DNA from: a bacterium
Lineage (GTDB): Bacteria > ARS69
Direction: 5' to 3'
NCBI GenBank assembly: GCA_025774805.1
Contig: JALGZR010000004.1
Coordinates: forward strand, 1 to 64,000
DNA length: 64,000 nt
Shown piece after piece: positions 42,381 to 49,232 of this stretch. Position 1 is the first letter of the stretch, and each line of letters starts with the position of its first letter. Both the position numbers and the translations under genes were made by a program. Under the pieces are notes generated by a model. That model searched no databases. It had not been told where the DNA came from and was given only the letters and a program-made list of their open reading frames with translations.

Positions 42381-42944
42381 ATGTCCCCCATCGCGCGGTC
42401 GGCACTGGCCCGTCTGATCACCCTCACGCTGCTCGCATCCGTCGCCGCCGGGGCCTTCGCGGGCGATACCCGGGTCAAAGCGCAGAACTTCCGAACCACC
42501 GACCTGAACGGGAAGAAGGTCTCTCTCGAGGACTTCCTGGGCAAAGGCCCCGTCGTCGTCGACTTCTGGGCGACCTGGTGCAAGCCGTGCATCAAGGAGC
42601 TTCCCTACATCCAGAAGATGATGGACGAGTACGCGGAACGAGGACTCACGGTCCTGACGGTCACGATCGACTCTCCCAAGACCCAGTCCCGGGTGAAGCC
42701 CTTCATGAAAGGTCGGAGGTTCGATTTCCCCGTGCTCCTGGACGCCAGCCAGGACGTCTTCCGCAAGCTGCAGGGGAAGGGCTCGGTTCCCTACGTCGTC
42801 GTTCTCGATTCGCAAGGGTACATTCGGTATCGCCATACCGGTTACCGGCCCGGAGACGAGAAGGAGCTGGAAAAGGCGGTGCTCGAGCTGCTTGACGAGA
42901 GCGTGGCGAACGATCCGTCCGAGGAGGAGGAGACCTCCAGTTGA
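42381..42944 (+). CDS. Exported TlpA/ResA-like thioredoxin
   Basis: This periplasmic thiol-disulfide protein has 187 residues. A signal peptide (cleavage after AFA near residue 27) precedes a TlpA-type domain with DLNGKKVSLEDFLGKGPVV and the active site WCKPC (Cys67, Cys70). The cis-Pro loop is GSVPYVVVLD. The C-terminus is acidic. It overlaps the next gene by 4 bp, starting a run of exported proteins of which two more have thioredoxin-like redox motifs. It could keep those partners reduced. Confidence 0.9.
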   Translation: MSPIARSALARLITLTLLASVAAGAFAGDTRVKAQNFRTTDLNGKKVSLEDFLGKGPVVVDFWATWCKPCIKELPYIQKMMDEYAERGLTVLTVTIDSPKTQSRVKPFMKGRRFDFPVLLDASQDVFRKLQGKGSVPYVVVLDSQGYIRYRHTGYRPGDEKELEKAVLELLDESVANDPSEEEETSS

Positions 42945-44527
42945 GCCCGTCGTTTCCCCGACCGGCCCCGTCGCCTCCCGGTCGGGGAGACGCCCGCCCT
43001 CCCTCGCGCCGCGCGGCGCCCCATCCCCGGCGTCTCGGGTGGCTTTTCGCCGCGGTCGTGCTCGCGGCGATGGCAGCGCCCCGGCCTCTTCCGGCCCAGG
43101 ACGAGGAGCCGATCTACCTCAGCGTCACCGACAAGCTCGACTATCGCCGTCTCGACAAGGAGAACCGGCGGGACGAGGCCTTCCGCAACCGCCTCGAGGT
43201 GTCCGCCTACCGGGGGATGTTCGGGGCGTGGCTCCGGCTCCAGAGCCTGGGAGTGAGTGACGCGAACTTCTACGACCCCTACGGCGTGGCGGAGGACGAT
43301 GTGCCGGGAGAGCAGCGGATCGACGGGACCGAGCTCACGCGCCGCCTCTTCACGATCGACACGGAGCCGTTCCAAATGGCCGTCGGGGACTTCTCCTACG
43401 TGTTCGGCCGAGGGCTGATGCTCTCGGTCTTCGAGGACGAGGAGCTCAACTACGACACCCGCCTCGAAGGCGTGTGGGCCACGTGGAACCACGACCGGGG
43501 GAGTCTCACCGCCATCGGCGGGAGCCGGGACGGAAACCGCTTTCGCGGTCTCTTCGCGGAGCCGCGCTCCTTCGGTCCCGCCCGCGTCGCCGCCTCCTTC
43601 GTCGAGGCGTGGGGGGCGGAGACCGCCACGAGCATCCGGGTACGGGAGAGGCAGGCCGGGGCGCTCGCCGAGGTCGGATGGGGTCCGGCGTCGATCTACG
43701 GGGAATATGTCCACCGGGAGTTCCCCGGAGGGAACACCGCCCGACCCGAGGACGAGGACGGCCACGGCGGCTTCGTCTCCGGGGTGATCTCCGGCGCCGG
43801 CCTGACGCTCTCCGGGGAGTACCGGGACTACGAAAAGTTCGAGCACGACTTCCACGATCCCCCCACCTCGCTCAAGCAGCACACCTGGACGCTCCTGAAC
43901 CGGGTCAACGGTCAGGTCCTCGCGGACATCGATGACAACGACGTGAAGGGCTGGCTCGCCGAGGGGGAGTACAGCCACGACTACTTCACCAGCGTGCGGG
44001 GAAGCTACGGTCGCGCCGACGGCGACGCCGGGGACGACTTCTGGGAGGTGTACGGCGAGGCAAAGGGCGCGTGGCGCGAGCGCGTGTTCGTCACGGCGGC
44101 GGGGGCGGAGTCGGAGCTCCAGTTCCTGTCGGTCTTCGAGGAGCGCCGCTCCGGGTTCGGGGAGGTGGTCGTCGAGCTCGATGACGCGAACAGCCTGACC
44201 GCCGGCGTGGAGTGGGAGGAGGTCCAGGAGACGGACGCGCTGACCGCGGCGTACGAGTTCCCCCGGGAGTACCGGAATCGCATCTACTCCCTCTCCTACG
44301 GCCGCTCCCCCTGGCTCACCCTGAGCCTGACCCACGAGGACACGACCGACGAGACCGAGGCGGAGGACGACTGGTTCGTCGCCTCCGCCGAGATCGTGCT
44401 GACGGAGAGCCAGGACCTCACCGTGAGCTTCGGAAGCGAACGGGGCGGCTGGAAATGCACGGGCGGCGTCTGCTTCTTCGAGCCGGAGTTCGAGGGGCTC
44501 AAGGTGAGGTGGGTCGCGAGGTACTAG
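42941..44527 (+). CDS. Outer-membrane beta-barrel-like protein
   Basis: The 528-residue product has a signal segment (about 32-52, ending PLPAQ) and then long stretches of alternating hydrophobic/polar residues with aromatic girdles. The C-terminus is VRWVARY, a terminal aromatic as in barrel signals. A segment VGDFSYVFGRGLMLS resembles proteins grouped as DUF6029, but this could not be checked. It starts at a TTG overlapping the TlpA stop (TTGA), so translation is coupled. The CTGGVC near the C-terminus gives a possible disulfide or partner for the neighbouring redox protein. Confidence 0.72.
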   Translation: MSPSFPRPAPSPPGRGDARPPSRRAAPHPRRLGWLFAAVVLAAMAAPRPLPAQDEEPIYLSVTDKLDYRRLDKENRRDEAFRNRLEVSAYRGMFGAWLRLQSLGVSDANFYDPYGVAEDDVPGEQRIDGTELTRRLFTIDTEPFQMAVGDFSYVFGRGLMLSVFEDEELNYDTRLEGVWATWNHDRGSLTAIGGSRDGNRFRGLFAEPRSFGPARVAASFVEAWGAETATSIRVRERQAGALAEVGWGPASIYGEYVHREFPGGNTARPEDEDGHGGFVSGVISGAGLTLSGEYRDYEKFEHDFHDPPTSLKQHTWTLLNRVNGQVLADIDDNDVKGWLAEGEYSHDYFTSVRGSYGRADGDAGDDFWEVYGEAKGAWRERVFVTAAGAESELQFLSVFEERRSGFGEVVVELDDANSLTAGVEWEEVQETDALTAAYEFPREYRNRIYSLSYGRSPWLTLSLTHEDTTDETEAEDDWFVASAEIVLTESQDLTVSFGSERGGWKCTGGVCFFEPEFEGLKVRWVARY

Positions 44528-44546: not shown

Positions 44547-44616
44547 AGAGGAAGAGGCGAAGCGGAGCCGGACCGATCCCCATCATCTCGAGAGCACACC
44601 GAGGAGGACCCCACCC

Positions 44617-45900
44617 TTGATCCCGAACCGGCCGAGGAACCGGTTCTCGCGGCTTTCCCCCCGGACTGAACGCCGATCCGCTCCCCGGCTCGGCACCGCC
44701 GTGCTGACGGCTCTGGCGCTCCTCATCGGCTGCAAGGACGAGCTGGCCCCCCCGACCCTGGGTTTCGTGGAGGTCCGGACCGGCGGGGTCGCGAATGTCG
44801 ACGTCTATCTCGACGGAGAACTCGTCGGGGTCGACCTCGACCGGCTGGGCCCGTTCGAGGCCGGGACGTATCGGGTGCGGGTGGCACGGTTCGGATTCGA
44901 CGTGGATCCGGCCGACGGGATCGACGTGACGGTTTCGCCCGGAAGGACCGCGATCGCGACCTTCGCGCTCGTCGCCCGCGACTTCGGCTCCGTCCGCATT
45001 CGGGCGTTCGACGAGGTGCTCGACACCGAGGTGCTCGGTGCGCCGATCCTGCAGAAGACCGGATCGGGGGACTACGTGTCCACCGGTCGGGTGACGGGTC
45101 AGCTCGTGGAAGAGATACCGGTCGGCCCCGCGACTTTCCTGATCCGGGAGGTCGGGTACGAAGACAGCGCCCCCGTCGTCGTCACGGTCGCCAACGACAT
45201 CGTGGTGGAGGAGGACGTCGTGCTCGCCCCACCCCACGCCGTCCTCGGCGAGATGTTCACGTTCGTGCAGTGCACCGGCTGTCCCGCGTCCGCCGACCGG
45301 CTCCGCGAGCTCTACCACGCGAACCCGGGGCGGATGTACGTGATCGAGTGGCACTCGGTGCCGGGCCAGGGTCTGTATGATCCGAGATGGCAGGAGAGGG
45401 AGCGCTTCTACGAGGAGCTTCACCTCGGGGGGGCGAGCATCACGGCCTACCCGACGGCTCTCTTCCAGGGCGTCCCCCCGCTGCTGTTGAACTCCCTACC
45501 CGCGACGCTCAACCAGTACGACGCGCTCGTCGCCGATCGCCTCGATGATTGCGCCACGGACTGCGCCGTCGCCATGAAGGTGGAGGGGCCGATCACGGAG
45601 CCGGCGACCACGATCACCGTACATCTCAAGTGGCGGGGAGGCGCACTCCCCGGCGACCTGAAGCTGCGCTTCGTCATCCTGGTGGGGGGGATCCCGGGAG
45701 GTCCGGAAGGGCACGTCTTCCACTTCGTCCCGAGGAACTACGAGGAGCAGGACGTGACGTTCGGAGCTCCGGGCGAGATCCGGCACTTCTCGGCGACCCT
45801 CGACCTGAACCCTTGGCCGACCTCGAACACGTTCGACTACGTCGTCTATCTCCAGTCCGACCAGACCGGAGAGATTCTGGCCGTGAGCGGAACTTACTAG
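44617..45900 (+). CDS. Omp28-like lipoprotein with thioredoxin-fold CTGC motif
   Basis: The 427-residue product starts at TTG (GAGGAGG 9 bp upstream) with a lipoprotein signal ending LLIGC (Cys about residue 34). Two PEGA-like beta domains follow (FVEVRTGGVANVDVYLDGEL-type). The thioredoxin-like segment then has FTFVQCTGC (Cys219, Cys222) and a tail domain of beta strands. The region after the CXXC (ADRLRELYHANPGRMYVIEWHS) aligns by eye with the selenoprotein encoded at 46895. A redox role at the outer membrane is inferred. It lacks the FlgD-like tail of its relatives. Confidence 0.78.
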   Translation: MIPNRPRNRFSRLSPRTERRSAPRLGTAVLTALALLIGCKDELAPPTLGFVEVRTGGVANVDVYLDGELVGVDLDRLGPFEAGTYRVRVARFGFDVDPADGIDVTVSPGRTAIATFALVARDFGSVRIRAFDEVLDTEVLGAPILQKTGSGDYVSTGRVTGQLVEEIPVGPATFLIREVGYEDSAPVVVTVANDIVVEEDVVLAPPHAVLGEMFTFVQCTGCPASADRLRELYHANPGRMYVIEWHSVPGQGLYDPRWQERERFYEELHLGGASITAYPTALFQGVPPLLLNSLPATLNQYDALVADRLDDCATDCAVAMKVEGPITEPATTITVHLKWRGGALPGDLKLRFVILVGGIPGGPEGHVFHFVPRNYEEQDVTFGAPGEIRHFSATLDLNPWPTSNTFDYVVYLQSDQTGEILAVSGTY

Positions 45901-45987: not shown

Positions 45988-46815
45988 ATGACCCGGATGG
46001 CACGGGCGAGCAATCTGGCTCTCCTCACGACCGTTGCCTTTGCCCTCGCCGGCTCCCTGGCGACGACGGACGCTTCAGAACTAACCGTGAGCAAGGCGCG
46101 CGCGCCCGAGGAGCGTCCCTCGCTCCGGCTCGCGCCGGCGGCGGACTACGAGTTCACCATCGAAGAGCTCTCCCTCAACTTGACCATCTTCGACGCGAAC
46201 ATCGTGGACTTCGTCGGCTCGTACTACTTCTTCTGGCTCACGAACACCGGCACGTCGTCGGACACCTATCGCCTGATCGTCGACAACGTCAGCTCCCCGG
46301 CCCTGTCGGCGGCGGTCTGCATCGGGACGGTGTGCACGCCCGACAGCATCAATCACACGCTCGCCCCGGGTGGCGCCGACACGGTCGGCGTGAACGTCGC
46401 CGCGTTCGACCACGTGGTGGGAACCGTCGATTTCCACGTCTACTCCGTCGGGAACTCGTCCAACCAGGCCCACTACACCGTGACGATCTACGGTGGGAAC
46501 ACGGGTCTCGGCGTCGAGCCGTTCGCGGGCTCGCTCGAGGGGTACACCCTCGGCCAGAACACGCCGAACCCGGTGCGCGCCGCCACGACGATCCCCTTCG
46601 CGCTGCCGAGGGAGGAGCGGGTGAGCCTGAGCCTCTACGACGTGGCCGGACGCATGGTCCGCGGGCTGACCGACGACGTCCTGCCCGCCGGCCCGCACGC
46701 CGTCACGTGGGACGGCCGGGGCGAGAACGGCCGCGAGCTCTCCAGCGGGGTCTACTTCTACCGGCTGACGACCCCGCAGGGCACGCTCACGAAGAACCTG
46801 ACGCTGACCCGATGA
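45988..46815 (+). CDS. Secreted protein with FlgD-like C-terminal sorting domain
   Basis: The 275-residue product has a signal peptide (about 8-30) and one central beta-sandwich domain (about 50-175) resembling CARDB/Ig-like folds, with a CIGTVC pair. The C-terminal FlgD-like domain (about 190-275) has the NTPNPVRAATTIPF start and LTKNLTLTR end. No enzyme motif is seen, so a structural or surface-attached role is likely. It lies between the two Omp28-like genes and 79 bp before the selenoprotein gene, probably in one transcript. Confidence 0.8.
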   Translation: MTRMARASNLALLTTVAFALAGSLATTDASELTVSKARAPEERPSLRLAPAADYEFTIEELSLNLTIFDANIVDFVGSYYFFWLTNTGTSSDTYRLIVDNVSSPALSAAVCIGTVCTPDSINHTLAPGGADTVGVNVAAFDHVVGTVDFHVYSVGNSSNQAHYTVTIYGGNTGLGVEPFAGSLEGYTLGQNTPNPVRAATTIPFALPREERVSLSLYDVAGRMVRGLTDDVLPAGPHAVTWDGRGENGRELSSGVYFYRLTTPQGTLTKNLTLTR

Positions 46816-46894
46816 CTCATCTTCCCTTCCCCCTCGTTCCGGCCCCCCGGAGTTCCCCGTTGCCGAGAGACCCTCTCAAAGGAGAAGCCCCGTG

Positions 46895-48943
46895 ATGACC
46901 CGAAGCAAGCTCTTCCCGATCGCGGGTTTGGCGCTGGGCGCCCTCGCGTTTCTCGTCCCGTCCTCCTCGGATGCCACGCTCGTCAAGCGCACGGTGTTCT
47001 GCGAGGAGTTCGGCTTCAGCACCTGACCGTACTGTCCGGACGTCCGTGAGGCGTTCCAGATGCTCCAGGAGGACTACGGGAACGAACGAATCGTCCACAT
47101 CGACTGGCAGAACAGTGGGTCTCTCAACAACCCGGACGCCCAAGCTCGCGGTAGTTATTACGGCGTGAGCTCGGTTCCCCACTCCGTCTTCGACGGCCAG
47201 AATCCCATCGTCGGAAGCTACGGCAGCCCGCAGGCGAACTACAACGTCTTCCTGCCGATCTTCCTGGCCCACGAGGCCGAGAGCTCCAAGGTGATGGTCG
47301 ACGCCTTCGTGACCTTCGACCCGGGCAGCTTGCAGGGCTACGTCGAGGTCACCGTCGAGATCGCTCCCGGGGAGACGGTCATTCCGACCAATCGCTTCAT
47401 CCGCGCGGCGATCTTCATCCGGGCTTGGCAATCCGGTCCCACGACCTGGCACGACATGGGAATCCGTTTGCCGCTCAACGTGCCCCTGACGATCTCGAGC
47501 GGAGGCCAGACCCAGACGGCATCCAGGACGTTCTCGCTGGATCCCGCGGATGTAAACCAGGCCTACGTCAACAATCCCTGGGACTGGGGGCAGCTCCGCG
47601 CCATCGGATTCGTCCAGAACGACGGCAGCCGGAAGGTGCTCAACGCGAACCTGGCTCCGCTCGCCTACGACCTCCAGGTGACGAACCTGGACCACCAGGT
47701 GCAGAAGGTGACCGGGGCCGAGAACGCCGAGGTGAACACCGAGGTCGAGTATCTCGGGGCCATTGACGACACCGTCACGGTCACGATGGACAAGTCGGGT
47801 CTGCCGGCCGGCTGGGACGCCGAGCTGGTCTGGAACTCCACGGTCTATCCGAGCGGTTTTACCATTCCGGCCATGACCGAGGGTCAGATCGAGGCGGTGA
47901 TGGTCCGGACGATCCCGGGCGCGGGCCCCGGTCTCGGTTCCGTCTCCGTGACGACAGAGCCCGTCTCCGAGCCGTTCCGGGGGACGACCTACGTCTACTC
48001 GACCTTCAAGGACACCGACGCCATCCTCTTCGTGGACGACGACAGGGGAGCGACGACGGAGACGATCTACGAGGCCGCGATCGCGGGCGCCGGTTACCAC
48101 TCCCTGACGTACGACTTCTTGGCCCTCTCGTACCCCACCGCCGATTACCTGGCTCCGTTCGACGCCGTCGTCTGGACGACGGGTGAGATGCAGTCCGGCA
48201 CGATCGGCAACAATGCTCAGGCCGAGTTGATCTCCTTCATGGACGGGGGCGGTCGGCTGTTCGTCTCGAGCCAGGGCTTTCTGAATCAGTACGGAGCCGG
48301 CGGCGATTTCGCCAGCAACTACCTGCGGGTGGCCTCGTTCAACCAGGACCCCCAGGCCGATTCGGCTTACGGCGTCGGCGGTGACCCGATCGGCGACGGA
48401 TGGGTTCTGGAACTGAACCCGCCGTTCGTCGACTTCGCCGACAGGATGACGCCGGGAACCGGGGCCGTCACTTGGTTGAACAGCGAGGAGGGACCGATCG
48501 GCCTCCGCTACGACGCGGGGGTCTTCCGGACCGTGTTCATGTGCGCCGCGTTCGATGGCGTTCCCGCCGGTCCGGCCATGAACGAGGAGATGATGCACCG
48601 GATCCTCGACTGGATCCTCGCGGGCTCCGGCCTCGACGTGACGACCGAGCCGGCGGCGGGCCCGGTCCGTCTCGCCCTCTCGCAGAACGCCCCGAACCCG
48701 TTCGCGGGCGCGACGCAGGTCCGCTACTCGATACCCGACGCCGGGCCGGTGAAGCTGTCGGTCTTCAACGTGACGGGCCGGAAGGTGACCGATCTGGTGA
48801 ACGGCATGATCCCCGCCGGGAACCACGTCGTGTCCTGGAACGGCGTCGACGCCGCGGGCAACCGCGTGGCGAGCGGCGTCTATCTCTACCGGATCGAGGC
48901 CGCCGGGGAGAGCCTCACCAAGGAGATGGTCCTGCTGCGCTAG
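46895..48943 (+). CDS. Omp28-like thioredoxin-fold selenoprotein with in-frame TGA (Sec44) and FlgD-like tail
   Basis: Reading from ATG 46895 (GGAG 10 bp upstream; GTG 46892 also possible) gives a signal peptide (about 5-27) and then CEEFGFST-U-PYC. The TGA at 47024-47026 is codon 44, and Cys47 completes a U-x-x-C redox site. The thioredoxin fold continues with EDYGNERIVHIDW and the cis-Pro loop GVSSVPHSVFDG. Beta domains follow, then a PIGL-type Ig region and a FlgD-like tail ending MVLLR; total 682 residues including Sec. Codon use upstream and downstream of the TGA is equally coding-like. Alternatives are a nonsense mutation or sequencing error (TGC to TGA) or a downstream start at 47060, which would lose the signal and active site. 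Confidence 0.8.
47048..47065 (+). promoter_or_regulatory. Candidate bacterial SECIS hairpin after the TGA
   Basis: Starting 21 bases after the TGA, GAG-G-CGT can pair with ATG-CTC (one bulged G and one G-U pair) around the loop TCCAG, placing a G-containing apical loop about 29-33 bases downstream of the UGA. That is inside the spacing known for bacterial SECIS elements. The nearby GTCCGGACGTCCG could form a competing stem. The fold was judged by eye only. Confidence 0.4.
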
Positions 48944-49028: not shown

Positions 49029-49091
49029 TCATCTCTCCACCGGCCTCTGCTGCGGCAGCGGCTCGCCGAGCCTGGTGCGCATTGCGGGCCG
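49029..49091. repeat. Shortened repeat copy (D1)
   Basis: CATCTCTCCACCGGCCTCTGCTGCGGCAGCGGC is followed closely by GAGCCTGGTGCGCATTGCGGG. The two ends of the dispersed element are thus brought together with most of the middle missing. Confidence 0.6.
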
Positions 49092-49140
49092 GGATTTCCG
49101 GTTTCCCGGGGCGCGCGGTTCGGGGAGAATCGGGGGCGGT

Positions 49141-49207
49141 AGCCTGCATGTCTCACCAGGCGCGGCTTCGCCGCTGCCGCAGCAGAGGCCGGTGAGACAT
49201 GCAGGCT
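49141..49207. repeat. Mini-copy (D2) of the repeat with perfect terminal inverted repeats
   Basis: A 67-bp element runs from AGCCTGCATGTCTCACC to its inverse GGTGAGACATGCAGGCT. Inside is a small hairpin GCGGC-TTC-GCCGC and the block CGCAGCAGAGG. It is an internally deleted derivative, typical of non-autonomous mobile elements, and lies 25 bp before the GT2 gene. Confidence 0.7.
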
Positions 49208-49232
49208 GGGAGCCGGCCAACCGAGGGGGCCC

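Follow-up and report, generated by a model that had tools for sequence, protein, structure and literature searches.

A predicted Omp28-related UxxC selenoprotein with a type IX secretion tail in an uncultured bacterial lineage

The stretch of DNA analysed here (the window) comprises 64,000 nucleotides of contig JALGZR010000004.1 and belongs to a metagenome-assembled genome (MAG), named G000 in the following. On its forward strand a long reading frame is interrupted by exactly one TGA codon, which is followed by 638 codons in the same frame, as read in the sequence and its translation (Table 1). The codon lies in the context CEEFGFST-U-PYC behind a leader resembling a signal peptide, and occupies the first position of a thioredoxin-type x-P-Y-C motif. 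Further downstream the loop SSVPHSVFDG (residues 92-101) carries a proline that is the same in 8/8 aligned relatives. The leader was read by eye, and the relatives have similar ones. The preliminary description had proposed the frame, the placement of the TGA in the motif, the cis-Pro loop, the signal peptide and a FlgD-like C-terminus from the letters alone; frame and TGA proved exact, and the other elements were recovered at the expected positions.

The gene is part of a block with the order glycosyltransferase 9, TlpA-like thioredoxin, DUF6029 protein, CTGC Omp28-like lipoprotein, small FlgD-tailed Cys-pair protein, selenoprotein, glycosyltransferase 2, TPR protein and valS. This order is kept in four other genera, as far as the contigs of the relatives and the compared stretches reach. 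Two genes upstream of the Sec gene, the lipoprotein gene represents a neighbouring paralogue of the Cys type, and four other genera have a homologue at this position. Imperfect inverted repeats (GCCTCTGCTGCGGCAGCGG / CCGCTGCCGCAGCAGAGGC and CCTGCATGTCTCACC / GGTGAGACATGCAGG, 49035-49210) lie in the interval that separates the selenoprotein gene from the glycosyltransferase gene after it.

Table 1. Features in and around the predicted selenoprotein gene, in window coordinates.
Feature	Position	Strand	Remarks
Exported TlpA/AhpC-TSA-type thioredoxin, CKPC	42381-42944 (start approximate)	+	PF00578, 85.7 bits; homologues in G001-G003
DUF6029 protein	42941-44527	+	PF19494, 58.8 bits; upstream, conserved in the same block
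Probable lipoprotein, CTGC Cys-type Omp28-like domain	44605-45900 (start approximate)	+	NF045500, 14.2 bits
FlgD-tailed secreted protein, Cys pair CIGTVC	45988-46815	+	Upstream neighbour; adjacency to the selenoprotein gene conserved
Shine-Dalgarno-like AGGAG	46880-46884	+	Direct sequence reading; precedes GTG 46892 / ATG 46895
Alternative start GTG	46892	+	Just ahead of ATG 46895
Predicted selenoprotein gene	46895-48943	+	682 codons, stop TAG; codon 44 is UGA (predicted Sec); other genera have full-length homologues that share this TGA
Predicted N-terminal signal peptide	46895-46975	+	Residues 1-27, by eye; hydrophobic stretch up to SSSDA; relatives with similar leaders
Thioredoxin-like / Omp28-related domain	46976-47650	+	Residues 28-252; NF045500 E 5.5e-11; Thioredoxin_3 E 6.6e-4
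UGA codon, predicted Sec, first position of U-P-Y-C	47024-47026	+	TGA in 6/6 clade genes, Cys in other homologues
Predicted resolving Cys47 of UxxC	47033-47035	+	Invariant in alignment
Candidate bSECIS hairpin GACGUC-CGUGA-GGCGUU	47039-47055	+	6 bp, 5-nt loop at 47045-47049, 18 nt after UGA
Pro95, cis-Pro position of thioredoxin fold	47177-47179	+	Invariant in alignment
C-terminal T9SS type A sorting tail / FlgD Ig-like domain	48692-48931	+	Residues 600-679; TIGR04183, PF13860

The sequence marks of a thioredoxin fold, i.e., the C/U-x-x-C motif, the cis-Pro and a match to thioredoxin-like profiles, are all present, and the family profile matches the thioredoxin of PDB entry 1fo5 (E 4.7e-5). 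Two AlphaFold models, built on a 5-sequence alignment, reached a mean pLDDT of 56 and 47, with the redox domain mostly below 50. As the redox domain was modelled with low confidence, the assignment of the fold is based on the motif, the invariant proline and the sequence profiles. At the C-terminus TIGR04183 scored 34.7 bits (cut-off 23), and in the same region the FlgD_ig model PF13860 scored 34.9 bits. SprA, the translocon of the type IX secretion system (T9SS), was found in G000 with 509.9 bits (cut-off 200), so that the two sequence features of a T9SS type A cargo, a sorting domain over the cut-off and SprA in the genome, occur together. At least 18 other FlgD/T9SS-type tails were counted in G000 and many per genome in the relatives, which suggests that this lineage may secrete many proteins by the type IX route.

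Conservation of the TGA was followed in the relatives G001-G004, which together with G000 represent the phylum in the searched set. In a protein search of 60 genomes, each of the four remaining genomes of the family of G000 yielded homologues, and every match that spans the motif has one TGA. TGA occupies the same column in six genes from five genera of this family (one gene each in G000, G001, G002 and G003, two copies in G004). The motif reads UPYC in G000 and G002, USFC in G001 and G003, and UQFC or UTFC in the two G004 copies. Identity among these homologues in the region is 32-44%, and the frame is kept on both sides of the TGA. In other homologues the column holds cysteine, among others in L050, a G001 paralogue with CPDC, and in L049 from another family with CGFC. 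An in-frame UGA that aligns with the cysteine of homologues, with flanks conserved on both sides, is the pattern of a bacterial selenoprotein. The preliminary description had staked the selenocysteine reading on the identity of this column and on the conservation of the upstream frame in relatives, and both came out in its favour. A search of contigs returned four loci, all from relatives already found. An apparent TGA in the paralogue upstream in G002 turned out to be an ordinary stop.

Most of the machinery for selenocysteine insertion was found in G000 by sequence search: selA (535.7 bits), selB (382.9 bits, with the SelB winged-helix and beta-barrel domains) and a tRNA-Sec with the anticodon TCA (UCA in RNA). 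Within the phylum, tRNA-Sec was detected in all five genomes and selA in three of them. The preliminary description had named selA, selB, selC and selD as the genes to look for; selD was the one missing in G000, searched with a profile model and with the SelD of a relative as query, whereas it is present in 4/4 relatives. A weak selD match in G000 was identified as PurM on reading. Given a MAG completeness of 96% and a contamination of 5%, the missing selD is a gap and not a contradiction. In G002, which is 100% complete with 1% contamination, the TGA gene, selA, selD and tRNA-Sec are all there. Each of the relatives' selD copies (L074-L077) itself contains an in-frame TGA, and in L075, the one copy read, it lies within SHTAGUASKICAK. 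An in-frame TGA is known for many SelD proteins; this lineage appears to use selenocysteine in its selenophosphate synthetase as well.

A bacterial SECIS element (bSECIS) is modelled as a hairpin with a loop of 3-9 nt, a G in the first two loop positions and a distance of 16-37 nt to the UGA (PMC13188914); as the limit of stability -7.5 kcal/mol was used. The hairpin of the window, with the loop CGUGA at a spacing of 18 nt, has this form. Its local fold reaches -9.7 kcal/mol and passes the limit, and the 7-bp hairpin alone has -6.7 kcal/mol. In all six sequences a stem of 5-6 bp with a CGUGC or CGUGA loop is located 18 nt after the UGA, and the segment GCCCGTGCGGCG 3' of the TGA is nearly identical across the six genes while its surroundings have diverged. 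The arginine codon at the hairpin is CGT in 6/6 genes, although CGT makes up 14% of the Arg codons elsewhere in them; the chance of this is ~7e-6 under the assumption of independent sequences, which these related genes are not. In G001 the stem shows a compensatory change, with U-A pairs instead of A-U and G-U. Random synonymous recoding produced a comparable stem in 0.6-2.6% of cases for four of the six genes, in 18% for the window gene and in 25% for G001. Since recoding often gives a stem for the window gene, the support for its hairpin is comparative and does not come from the window alone. In line with this, the RNA of the window folded on its own was no stabler than shuffled sequences, and the signal arises only from comparison across genera. 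Of the six hairpin cores, that of the window has the lowest stability (-4.7 kcal/mol), and an Rfam search of the window gave no match.

The wider family was surveyed with NF045500, the NCBIfam model named 'Omp28-related selenoprotein', in 386 genomes. It gave matches in 100 of these genomes, all of them below the cut-off of 200. TGA was found at the first motif position in 13 further proteins from other families, e.g., as UVYC (L100), UPYC (L101, L108, L112 and L124), UTYC (L121) and UGYC (L125). A hairpin of the bSECIS kind follows in 19/19 TGA genes and is weak in one, L126 (-3.8 kcal/mol). L125 carries the form seen in the clade, ACGCC-CGUGC-GGCGU, and seven Omp28-like Sec genes of other families (L095, L101, L108, L121, L122, L123 and L127) have a second form ~34 nt after the TGA, whose stem is capped by an invariant AGUU loop. 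Covariation in this stem is strong, with both sides changed in 10 cells, and 0/500 shuffles reached as high a value. In a control of nine Cys homologues the hairpin was absent or very weak in seven and fairly stable in two, showing that the bSECIS model lacks specificity when used by itself. G108 (L095, L121, L122), a genome from another family, contains four distinct Sec-type Omp28-like genes; a pair of these, with UVYC and UPVC, are ~2 kb apart. In a tree of 38 domains the distribution of Sec and Cys needs 6 changes on the best tree and at least 3 on well-supported branches. A single Sec clade was rejected (p-AU 0.004), a result to be read with caution as the tree has long branches.

Proteins of this general kind have been known since 2008, when GOS_C, a thioredoxin-like protein with a UxxC motif, was described from ocean metagenomes with 74 Sec sequences (Zhang and Gladyshev, PMC2398784); according to a 2026 review GOS_C corresponds to NF045500 (PMC13188914). 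The word 'unusual' in the preliminary description was therefore too strong. Like GOS_C, the window protein has a single Sec in the UxxC of a thioredoxin-like domain. It matches profile positions 35-264 of NF045500, and by offset the Sec falls at about position 51, where the first cysteine of a Cys homologue also falls. However, it scores 42.5 bits (E 5.5e-11) against the curated cut-off of 200, and because of this it is, on sequence, a divergent relative of NF045500 and not a member by NCBI's rule.

The name 'Omp28-like' holds as a distant relationship. Besides the match to NF045500, residues 27-69 align with the Omp28 lipoprotein model (NF033782, lipoprot_Omp28; E 4.4e-6), but both matches are below their cut-offs, and the window protein gave no hit to the Pfam Omp28 family PF11551. 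Some relatives do match PF11551 (4/8 aligned sequences at E up to 10, best E 1.7e-13). The window protein differs from the Omp28 lipoproteins in that it has no lipobox by eye, and has ~430 extra residues, a sorting tail and Sec. With other thioredoxin-fold selenoproteins (Trx-like, Prx and DsbA/DsbG types) it shares Sec in place of the first Cys of CxxC and a bSECIS just downstream, but it comes from a different domain family and has the type IX tail. Conversely, it resembles other T9SS type A cargo (TIGR04183 / FlgD_ig tails) in its tail and the presence of SprA, and differs from them in being a predicted selenoprotein. A literature search for Omp28 together with selenoprotein returned nothing under that name, and the link was made via the identity of NF045500 and GOS_C. 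We found no description of the occurrence in all sampled genera of this lineage, of its own bSECIS form, of the T9SS tail together with SprA, or of the conserved block.

We consider it almost certain, judged from the sequence data, that UGA 47024-47026 is read as selenocysteine, as the preliminary description had proposed. A chance stop in a Cys-type gene, be it a nonsense mutation, a pseudogene or a sequencing error, might be suspected for a single MAG contig in whose assembly selD was not found. However, the TGA stands in the same column of six genes from five genera, whose genomes were assembled independently of each other, the downstream frame is conserved, and so are the synonymous sites and the hairpin 3' of the TGA. 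As independent assemblies agree, sequencing error and pseudogene were ruled out, and the earlier judgement that a random nonsense mutation was improbable can be sharpened: this explanation has a negligible probability. Equally hard to maintain is a reassigned code or unspecific readthrough, with TGA meaning Trp, Gly or Cys everywhere, although one in-frame TGA would fit any readthrough. TGA is the ordinary stop of neighbouring genes, from which it follows that the code as a whole is standard; moreover, the aligned residue of homologues is Cys and not Trp or Gly, selA, selB and tRNA-Sec are present, and the SelD of the relatives has its own in-frame TGA. Reassignment was rejected on the normal stops nearby and the aligned Cys. 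The locus might also be translated in two pieces, with a short secreted peptide that stops at the TGA and a second protein initiated internally at ATG 47060, which opens a frame of 627 amino acids. This is very unlikely. A protein begun at the internal start would lack both the signal peptide and the redox motif, where conservation is highest; moreover, each Cys-type homologue runs through uninterrupted as one protein, and the TGA is fixed with no variation among stop codons.

Less remote, if still improbable, is a true selenoprotein that is not a surface redox enzyme, either because its Sec site does something else, for example binds a metal or heme, or because the protein remains periplasmic. 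No assay of the family was found in a literature search, and GOS_C was reported without functional evidence in 2008 (PMC2398784). Against this stand UxxC, the invariant proline and the thioredoxin-like profile matches, and for the location the sorting tail and SprA. An exported redox role is thus the likely one for the window protein.

For selenocysteine reading at this locus we propose that SelB bound to the hairpin would deliver the Sec-tRNA(UCA) at the UGA, and that Sec would thereby enter the protein at the leading position of the thioredoxin-type UxxC centre. We infer this insertion from the Sec codon, the hairpin and most of the machinery, which are observed at the sequence level, as are the sorting tail and SprA. 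The signal peptide would export the protein, and the C-terminal tail would route it through the type IX secretion system, presumably to the cell surface. There the Omp28-related domain would probably act as a selenol/thiol-disulfide oxidoreductase that exchanges electrons with disulfides outside the cytoplasm. The probable setting is the conserved block, which would be extracytoplasmic and redox-active with its TlpA-like thioredoxin, the CxxC lipoprotein and the Cys-pair FlgD-tailed protein; that these redox proteins are partners of the selenoprotein is a guess. The chances are about even that the proteins form a separate subfamily below the curated cut-off, which is fixed across this uncultured lineage, carried to the surface by T9SS and placed in a redox block, within a superfamily in which Sec and Cys were interchanged several times.

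Omp28-type UxxC selenoproteins thus extend well beyond the curated model, into all five sampled genera of one lineage and into other families, where the Sec genes use two different bSECIS forms. Such genes are liable to truncation at the UGA or to pseudogene calls in genome annotation. With its repeated switches between Sec and Cys, the family lends itself to studying the reasons for the gain or loss of Sec, and the joint occurrence of Sec and a type IX secretion tail suggests that selenium chemistry takes place on the cell surface.
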